From assembly GCA_026005055.1 (NCBI GenBank), contig BPKI01000001.1, forward strand, positions 1 through 64,000: 64,000 nucleotides of DNA. Reading direction: 5' to 3'. This DNA comes from Lysobacterales bacterium. Lineage in GTDB: Bacteria > Pseudomonadota > Gammaproteobacteria > Xanthomonadales > BPKI01. The notes beneath the pieces are model-generated. The model had not been told where the DNA came from, ran no database searches, and saw nothing but the letters and a program-made list of their open reading frames with translations. Shown piece by piece: positions 10,591-13,308 of the stretch. A program made the translations under genes and the position numbers. Numbering within the stretch: the first letter of the stretch is position 1; the number at the start of each line of letters is the position of its first letter.

Positions 10591-13308
10591 ATGCGCAAGA
10601 GCACGTTCTGGGCGATCGCGGCCGCCGGGGTCGCGTTGGGCGGCTTGGCCTTGCTCCTCGCTTCGCTCGGCCGCTCCGAGCAGGCACCCCGGAGTCTCAA
10701 GCCGATCCTCGGCGACTTCTGGGCGATCCGAGTGGCTTACCCGACGATGCATTTCAGCCCGGCCTGGTACCGGGAGGCCGAGCTTGCGGACGCGCGCATC
10801 GCTTCGGGTGTGCCGGAAGGCACCCACGAACGCCTGCTCGCGAAAAACGCCGCATCCCCGCTCGGGCTGAACCCGGCAGCGTGGACCTTCATCGGCCCTC
10901 GCCCGAAAGTCTTCGGCGGCTATGGGCAGGTGAGCGGGCGCGTCAACGCCTTGCTCGTCGATCCGCGCGGACCCGACGCGCAGGGCCGCCACACCGTGCT
11001 CGCCGCCACCGACGGCGGCGGAGTGTGGAAAAGCATCAACTGCTGCGGCCCGGACACCGCGTGGTATGTCACCACCGATCAGCCCGAGATCAAGAGCATC
11101 GCTATCGGCACCCTGACCCGCGACCCGAACGATCCAGACGTCATCTACGCCGGCACCGGCGATTTGCGCTACGGCAGCTTTTCCTTCGGCACCGCGGGGC
11201 TGCTCAAGAGCACGGACAACGGCGAGACTTGGACGGTGCTGGGCGAGGAGGTCTTCACGCCCTTCTACCCGCCCTCGGCGAGTCTTGGATTTCCTCAGTA
11301 CCAGGCGATCGGCAAGGTGGCGATCGATCCCGCCGACTCGGCCCGGATCGTGGTCGGCACCAAGACGGGGCTCTATTTCTCGCACGATGGCGGCGCGAGT
11401 TTGGCGGGACCTTGCTACACCAACCCGCACCTCTCGCAGCGACAGGACATCACGGCTCTCCTTGCGATCCGAGTGGGTGGCGTGACCCGGCTTTATGCCG
11501 CCGTGGGCACCCGCGGCAACCCGACGCCCGTGCAGCCCGACCTCGGACTGATCGGCGCGAACGGCGTGTATCGCACCATCATGCCCACTTCCGGTTGTCC
11601 CGCACCCGGCGATTGGACCCTGCTCGCGAATGGCTGGCCTGCCGGCACGGGCAACGGCAGCCCGAGCGGGAAGACGCTCGGGCGCATCGAGCTCGCGGTC
11701 GCGCCGAGTGATCCGAACCGCCTCTACGCGATGGCCGCGCACACCACCAACGGCAACGTCCTCGGCGTCTGGCGCAGCGACGACGGCGGCGACAACTGGG
11801 TTCAGGTCGCCGCTACCGCCAACGTCGAGGCCAACGGCTGCTCGAGCTCCGCCGGCGGAGGCTCGCAGATGTGGTACGACGCCCACCTCCTGGTCGATCC
11901 GGTCGATCCGGACACCGTCTACCTGAGCGGCGTGGACCTCTACCGCTCGATGAACGGCGGAGCCAGCTTCCAGAACATCACCTGCGGCTACGGCAATGGC
12001 AACGTGCACGTGGACCACCATGCCGCCGCGTTCCTTCCCGACGGCGCCGGCGGCCTCGATCGGGATCGGCTCCTGGTCGGCACCGACGGCGGCGTGTACT
12101 ACACCCAGAATCCCCGTTTCGGAACCGGCGGAAGCTCCGCGGCGAATCGCCCGAGCTTCGTCTCGCTCAACGCGACCAAGGGCGCGATCGAGTTCTACTC
12201 GGGTGACATCAGCCGTGAGTTCGCCACGAGCAGCCTGCCCGGCGCGAGCGGTGGCGCGCAGGACAACGGAAGCTCCTATGCGCGCTGGACCAGCGGCGAT
12301 CCCGGTGCCACGACCTGGACCGTGCGATTGGGTGGCGATGGCATCTACACCCGCATCGAGCCGGTGCTCGAGCAGCGCTGGTACTGGTCGAGCCAGAACG
12401 GCAATCTCCAGGTCTCGACGGCCGGCCCGAACAGCGCCCCACAACTCGCCACGCCGCAGACCACACCGGCTTGGGGCGGCGACACCTTGAGCTTCCTGAT
12501 GCCCTACGAGCTCTACAAGCACGGCGCGCTCGATCAGCCCGGCAGCGGCTGCACCAGCGCCTCGGGCTGCACGTTCATGATCGCCGGCACCAACCGAGTC
12601 TGGGAAACGCTCGCGGGCGGCATTCCCCGGTCGAGCTGGTACCCGAACAGCCCGGTGCTGACCAAGAACACGCTCGGCAACCGCTCCTTCATCAACCAGC
12701 TCGCCTACGCCGTGCGCTCGCCCCGCGTGGCGATCGCCGGCACCAACGACGGCAACGTCTGGGTCGGCTTCGACATGAACGGCGGCAGCGCCAACAGCGC
12801 CCAGTGGGTAAACGTCACCGGCGGCAACGCGGTCCTGCCCAATCGGCCGGTGATGGACGTGGTCGTCGAGACCCTCGATCCCGCGCAGCCGGACGCGCTG
12901 GTCATCGGTTACGCCGCCATCGGCGGCTTCGATCAGAACACCCCGGCGCAGCCGGGGCACGTGTTCGAGCTCGTTTGCCAGAACCGCTGCCAGAGCTTCC
13001 TCTGGCGCAACCTCACCGGCAACCTGCCCAACATTCCGGCGAATGCCATCGCGTTCAACCCCAAGTGGCCGCAGCAGGTCTTCGTCGGCACCGACTGGGG
13101 CCTTTACTTCACCGACGACGTCCGCGCCGATCCACCGGTCTGGCAGCGCTTCGACCACGGCTTGCCCCGTGTGATGGTCTGGGACCTCGCGATCGACCGC
13201 GGCTTCACTGCACTTGCCGCCTTCACCCGCGGTCGCGGCGCGTACGCCTGGCCGCTGCCGGACCCGCCGCCGAGCGGCATCTTCGCCGACGGCTTCGAGG
13301 GGCCCTGA
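10591..13308 (+). CDS. Large secreted BNR/VPS10-type beta-propeller protein with IFADGFE C-terminus
   Basis: The 905-residue protein has an N-terminal hydrophobic signal or anchor (about 7-25). The rest is built of repeated beta-propeller blades with Asp-box or VPS10-like motifs: TDGGGVWKS, STDNGETWTV, SHDGGAS, SDDGGDNWVQ, MNGGASFQN, GTDGGVYYT, GTDWGLYFTDD. Such folds occur in sialidases, xyloglucanases and sortilin-like binding proteins, but no sialidase FRIP motif or catalytic set was seen. Substrate is therefore unknown. The protein ends SGIFADGFEGP, a tail I recall on many secreted proteins of Lysobacterales and a possible sorting tag. The ATG at 10591 follows GGGGAGG; a GTG two codons upstream is possible. 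It diverges from the oxidase operon. Confidence 0.85.
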   Translation: MRKSTFWAIAAAGVALGGLALLLASLGRSEQAPRSLKPILGDFWAIRVAYPTMHFSPAWYREAELADARIASGVPEGTHERLLAKNAASPLGLNPAAWTFIGPRPKVFGGYGQVSGRVNALLVDPRGPDAQGRHTVLAATDGGGVWKSINCCGPDTAWYVTTDQPEIKSIAIGTLTRDPNDPDVIYAGTGDLRYGSFSFGTAGLLKSTDNGETWTVLGEEVFTPFYPPSASLGFPQYQAIGKVAIDPADSARIVVGTKTGLYFSHDGGASLAGPCYTNPHLSQRQDITALLAIRVGGVTRLYAAVGTRGNPTPVQPDLGLIGANGVYRTIMPTSGCPAPGDWTLLANGWPAGTGNGSPSGKTLGRIELAVAPSDPNRLYAMAAHTTNGNVLGVWRSDDGGDNWVQVAATANVEANGCSSSAGGGSQMWYDAHLLVDPVDPDTVYLSGVDLYRSMNGGASFQNITCGYGNGNVHVDHHAAAFLPDGAGGLDRDRLLVGTDGGVYYTQNPRFGTGGSSAANRPSFVSLNATKGAIEFYSGDISREFATSSLPGASGGAQDNGSSYARWTSGDPGATTWTVRLGGDGIYTRIEPVLEQRWYWSSQNGNLQVSTAGPNSAPQLATPQTTPAWGGDTLSFLMPYELYKHGALDQPGSGCTSASGCTFMIAGTNRVWETLAGGIPRSSWYPNSPVLTKNTLGNRSFINQLAYAVRSPRVAIAGTNDGNVWVGFDMNGGSANSAQWVNVTGGNAVLPNRPVMDVVVETLDPAQPDALVIGYAAIGGFDQNTPAQPGHVFELVCQNRCQSFLWRNLTGNLPNIPANAIAFNPKWPQQVFVGTDWGLYFTDDVRADPPVWQRFDHGLPRVMVWDLAIDRGFTALAAFTRGRGAYAWPLPDPPPSGIFADGFEGP

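Follow-up and report, generated by a model that had tools for sequence, protein, structure and literature searches.

Many unrelated exported proteins of the Lysobacterales end in the same short tail (consensus [ILV]-F-x-[DN]-G-F-[ED]-x(0-6)-stop, with variants including DRFE and AHGFE), which is nearly restricted to this order and is co-distributed with one subclass of type II secretion system (T2SS), here called alpha. We think there is an even chance that the tail works as a short linear signal by which substrates of this GspC-containing T2SS are sorted, a reading that rests on correlation. The preliminary description of the window, by which we mean the whole 64,000-nucleotide stretch of DNA analysed, had proposed an uncharacterised sorting, secretion or processing signal from one gene, and the terminal position of the motif on unrelated proteins, together with the enrichment of export starts among them, now supports that proposal. 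The gene has the following features.

10591-13308, + strand: gene of the 905-residue exported propeller protein with the tail (ATG at 10591, stop codon at 13306-13308)
10591-10692, + strand: predicted N-terminal export signal MRKSTFWAIAAAGVALGGLALLLASLGRSEQA, a signal peptide or an uncleaved anchor (from the sequence)
13252-13278, + strand: Pro-rich linker PLPDPPPSG between propeller and tail (from the sequence)
13279-13299, + strand: tail motif I-F-A-D-G-F-E (pattern match at 13282-13298, and the ends of orthologues)
13300-13308, + strand: trailing G-P and stop codon, with no transmembrane helix or basic cluster (from the sequence)

Translation from 10591 gave a C-terminus of ...AYAWPLPDPPPSGIFADGFEGP and then the stop codon, that is, IFADGFEGP at the very end (the last residues can also be written ...GRGAYAWPLPDPPPSGIFADGFEGP), which confirms that the 905-residue protein ends in this way after a Pro-rich break, the linker PLPDPPPSG. 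The start of the protein, MRKSTFWAIAAAGVALGGLALLLASLG, is plausibly an export signal. Pfam and NCBIfam returned weak matches only, to BNR/sortilin-like and F510_1955-type propellers, no sequence relative was found among solved structures, and a peptide-pattern search for relatives in named genomes gave no match. Relatives are present in 40 genomes of the order, its own included (39 others), and most of those fetched are 47-69% identical to the window protein. Some form of the tail was seen in 29 of the 30 fetched copies (IFKDGFE, IFANGFE, LFVDSFE, IFKNGFE and others), the remaining copy, from genome G020, having a different C-terminal extension; across eight further families of the order, the orthologues retain the tail in one version or another although the linker that precedes it differs. 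The orthologue of genome G096 (L328), in which the second, alpha T2SS was not found, contains a TAG codon in frame, and its tail is worn (LSFKQGFE).

The window protein is one carrier among many. The pattern FxDGF[ED] has 21 sites in the 2.44-Mb genome to which the window belongs, against 0 for the reversed-pattern control; 16 of these lie 0-4 residues ahead of a stop codon and one comes right after a signal peptide (SLSAQ-PIFADGFEQR, L052). The remaining four seem to be antisense or in unrelated frames. No family in Pfam is common to the sixteen terminal carriers, most of which have a signal peptide. They include BNR and DUF5122 propellers, an M28 peptidase, GSDH, SpoIID, a MauG-like cytochrome, LamG and PKD proteins, an endonuclease/phosphatase with DUF11, and two subtilases with different partner domains. 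The collection of all motif-ending proteins of the genome, which the preliminary description had called for, thus yielded sixteen unrelated proteins and not, as it had allowed for, orthologues of one protein alone. Sampled stretches of three other genomes added 27, 33 and 19 unrelated carriers, and the same end motif on many unrelated exported proteins of a genome is what is expected of a C-terminal sorting signal in general. The codons of the motif vary between tails while the residues stay fixed, so conservation is at the level of protein and not of DNA. For one tailed protein of the same genome (L065:4959-7019), the upstream part is seemingly out of frame, through a frameshift, pseudogene formation or an assembly error.

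Residue counts for 99 tails from four genomes, a table that leaves out tails with longer ends, show I, L or V at position 1, F at position 2 (91), often A or R at position 3, D (87) or N at position 4, G at position 5 (86), F at position 6 (96), and E (64) or D (33) at position 7, followed by 0-6 residues. Within called genes of four genomes, the motif is C-terminal in 95 cases, internal in 16 and at the mature N-terminus in 2, a placement at odds with the mainly internal occurrence that would have spoken against a tail. The internal copies, mostly in family f12, have more sequence after them and are carried by LVIVD-repeat, DUF5122 and subtilase proteins; the two mature N-terminal copies are in proteins of different genomes (L052:2629-4614 and L181:8832-11063). 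Since such N-terminal and internal copies exist, a strictly C-terminal reader is not required. Tandem tails were seen in Marinicella-like genomes, for example IFLDGFEGDVIFKNGYD and IFANGFEGDLIFLNGFESP (L066/L035, L038, L373), and genome G103 has a longer tail, IFTDGFESGDTSAWTTTVP (L294 and L318). A longer tail of the form GFExG[DN]xxxW was rejected as a general explanation, with 2 matches in 16 genomes.

Tailed genes are enriched for export starts. By a crude heuristic, signal-peptide-like starts were found for 71 of 88 tailed genes versus 311 of 756 untailed genes (p=8e-13); by this measure (71/88), most tailed genes have the kind of start, a Sec or Tat signal peptide, that type II substrates have. 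In a sample of choice-of-anchor Q domains chosen without regard to the tail, all of the protein-terminal domains were followed by one (14/14; LFKNGFE, IFLDGFE, VFRDGFE, LHADGFE, IFQEGFE and others), and this domain was present in 13 of 13 tail-rich genomes and in 0 of 5 tail-poor relatives.

The preliminary description had also stated, correctly as it proved, that many Lysobacterales proteins end in this way. Across 151 genomes of the order, the number of sites ranged from 0 to 108 per genome, with sharp changes between genera of one family, while other Gammaproteobacteria have 0-4 sites per genome (~270 genomes, ~155 families). When 84,980 species were scanned for [x]FADGFE directly before a stop codon, 103 stretches matched. 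Long frames in Lysobacterales make up most of the 80 matches that were listed (Dokdonella, Marinicella, Chiayiivirga, Pseudofulvimonas, Tahibacter, Wenzhouxiangella and MAGs of the order), and the matches listed from remote phyla are mostly very short frames. Two contigs labelled Sedimenticola (L413, L440) have real tails and could be a mislabelled MAG or a second lineage.

The check for co-occurrence with a secretion gene, likewise suggested at the outset, pointed to one T2SS subclass. GspD in general was rejected as the partner, being present in essentially all of the 63 genomes tested; only the subclass discriminates. Tail-rich genomes have two secretins above the cut-off, alpha and Xps-like, which form separate clades with support of 100/100. 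The alpha locus reads gspC-gspD-gspE, with gspF and then ftsE-ftsX behind it in many genomes. In the genome of the window, GspD, GspE and a GspC that has a PDZ-like region were identified. Alpha is present in 81 of the 151 genomes of the order, a count that leaves out partial matches in genus g13 of family f2 and belongs to a full set of which 63 genomes were already in the first look, where the subclass was noticed before the full set was analysed. The median number of motif sites is 22 with alpha versus 3 without (151 genomes, of which related ones are not independent). At the level of genera, tallied by hand from site counts and the presence of alpha, at least 10 sites were found in 28 of 33 with alpha versus 2 of 31 without (p=7e-11, a statistic that ignores relatedness). 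The same holds within families: in f12, 4 of 4 genomes with alpha are tail-rich versus 0 of 20 without (p=9e-5), and in f2 the sole alpha genome, G090, is also the sole tail-rich one. Tail-less genomes of genus g13 of f2 have a GspD of a third type, whose sister group is the alpha clade (L216 and L217; G039, G022). In the tree of Xps-like secretins, G052, with no alpha and no tails, groups with G149 and G109, which have both, while G073 and G104, with neither, lie apart from this group. Because G052 nests among tail-rich genomes, alpha and tails appear to have been lost together more than once, with no fewer than two such losses in f12 and one in f2, provided that the Xps-like tree follows species history.

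The link between tail and alpha is strong but imperfect, and correlational. Some departures are matters of spelling. Genus g9 has alpha and few DGFE sites, and its GSDH orthologues end IFQDRFE, VFADRFE, IFGDRFE, LFRDRFE and IFEDRFE; an unrelated neighbour ends IFLDRFE, so this genus has the tail in another spelling. Ends in g39, also with alpha and few DGFE sites, read IFAHGFE, and G116 uses NGFE. No covariation of GspC or GspD with the tail variants was seen, and the columns unique to the DRFE genus, for which there are only two g9 sequences, held nothing striking. Two genomes without alpha that seemed mildly rich, G018 and G059, have 0 and 2 sites once the pattern is made stricter, neither of the 2 being a tail. 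Alpha was not detected in the tail-rich G047, G058, G117 and G122, probably as a result of their fragmented or incomplete assemblies, and no tail was seen in G081, which has alpha. A true counter-example is family f7 (G062, G096, G121, G131), with several genuine tails and no alpha secretin.

Near the tailed genes, no conserved untailed neighbour qualified as the machine, as only lineage-specific regulators emerged. One set comprises 17 long regulators whose N-terminal winged helix is of the OmpR/CadC type and whose C-terminal part is long, and TPR-like in some (L156-L175 in G030; L180, L192 and L194 in G109). In three genomes, an ECF-like sigma gene is paired with a Ser/Thr kinase bearing a TPR-like region (L196, L197, L199, L173, L174, L179, L184).

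In the explanation that we prefer, the signal peptide would take the carrier into the periplasm, where the flexible tail would be read by the GspC-containing T2SS (gspC-gspD-gspE, often with gspF) or by a partner coupled to it, and reading would mark the protein for passage through the alpha secretin or for retention after it. We infer both the T2SS as reader and the periplasm as the place of reading from the distributions above; the PDZ region of GspC is one candidate for the component that binds. The true reader could instead be some gene that disappeared along with alpha, and tails and alpha could have been lost jointly with a lifestyle. A wider version of the proposal, possible although we rather doubt it, is that the tail is a portable seven-residue signal, the first short motif that lets a T2SS pick out many unrelated folded substrates, and that its lineage spellings (DGFE, NGFE, DRFE, AHGFE) evolve with the machine.

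Several of these observations would also suit a docking peptide for surface display, with the carrier leaving by whichever T2SS and an outer-membrane or extracellular receptor holding IFxDGFE, so that the correlation with alpha would be indirect. The two mature N-terminal motifs and the tandem copies of Marinicella-like genomes are more readily understood as a ligand than as a cleavage signal, f7 retains tails without the second T2SS, and choice-of-anchor domains usually sit ahead of anchoring tails. We nevertheless regard docking as rather unlikely, given that no receptor candidate and no outer-membrane protein common to the neighbourhoods of tail genes were found, and docking alone does not account for co-loss with one T2SS subclass. 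Cleavage of the tail, or its joining to another molecule, by a dedicated enzyme is improbable in our view: the many unrelated carriers do recall the many-to-one pattern of LPXTG, PEP-CTERM, GlyGly-CTERM and T9SS domains (PMC3237569), yet there is no membrane helix or basic cluster to hold the substrate for a membrane enzyme, N-terminal, internal and tandem occurrence fits poorly, and a search that stopped short of an unbiased genome-wide profile identified no enzyme family.

The regulators near tail genes suggest another role, in which the tail is a ligand that reports on export; its sensor would be the repeat-rich, probably periplasmic portion of membrane-bound CadC-like one-component regulators or of Ser/Thr kinases. 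This is very improbable: 17 regulators of one family adjoin or sit near motif-bearing genes in G030 and G109, and G003, G030 and G109 have kinase-TPR and ECF-like sigma genes close to tail genes, but such adjacency is partly expected because the stretches were chosen around tail genes. No such neighbours were noticed at the carriers in the window's own genome, no member of the CadC-like family occurs in the G003 stretches, and the regulators are lineage-restricted. We give just as little credence to the absence of any role in transport, with the tail as a lineage-specific remnant of domain shuffling or DNA repeats, or as a cap against tail-specific proteases. Carriers do swap whole domains, and some internal copies precede extra C-terminal regions; against this, the residues of the motif are fixed while its codons vary, orthologues at 47-69% identity retain it though the linker changes, and tail-specific proteases are widespread whereas the tail is not.

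How a T2SS recognises structurally unrelated substrates is a question long open. A full-text literature search, from whose coverage subscription journals are mostly absent, found no paper with FADGFE, FRDGFE or "DGFE motif", and none on a linear T2SS signal of this kind; to our knowledge, no linear T2SS signal common to unrelated substrates has been described so far. A seven-residue tail on ~15-100 proteins per genome, paired with one T2SS subclass, is a directly testable candidate and offers a way to annotate secretomes across the order. Even if the reader is something else, the tail is a widespread sorting tag for which we found no published description.

Among known systems, the C-terminal domains of the T9SS in Bacteroidota resemble the tail as helix-free C-terminal signals, and guide Sec-exported proteins through the outer membrane. 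These are folded domains of about 70-100 residues, whereas the tail is a linear 7-mer in Gammaproteobacteria, and no T9SS sorting domain of Pfam or NCBIfam matched at the tails of the scanned carriers. PEP-CTERM/exosortase and IPTL-CTERM tags are also C-terminal sorting tags and also often stand behind choice-of-anchor domains, but the tail has no helix, Arg cluster, or PEP or IPTL motif. Proteins of the tripartite systems (PEP-CTERM, GlyGly-CTERM, LPXTG) have a motif, a helix and a basic cluster; in 99 tails, 0-6 residues follow and no helix is present. Because so few residues follow, the tail is not PEP-CTERM, GlyGly-CTERM or IPTL-like, as the preliminary description had held for PEP-CTERM and IPTL tails from the missing helix and Arg cluster, and none of the NCBIfam CTERM models was reported for the window protein and four other carriers. 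GlyGly-CTERM and rhombosortase provide a likeness in their short C-terminal signature on unrelated secreted proteins, their many-to-one pattern and their occurrence in species that also have a T2SS (PMC3237569). The GlyGly-CTERM tag differs in joining its motif to a transmembrane helix and a basic cluster, while the tail is seven residues that end the protein almost at once. In GlyGly-CTERM genomes, T2SS genes obtain high scores, yet no T2SS subclass was found to be tied to rhombosortase (PMC3237569); the tail goes with one subclass. In having a signal peptide and then a folded extracellular enzyme or binding protein, and in genomes with one or two T2SS, the tailed proteins resemble type II substrates in general.
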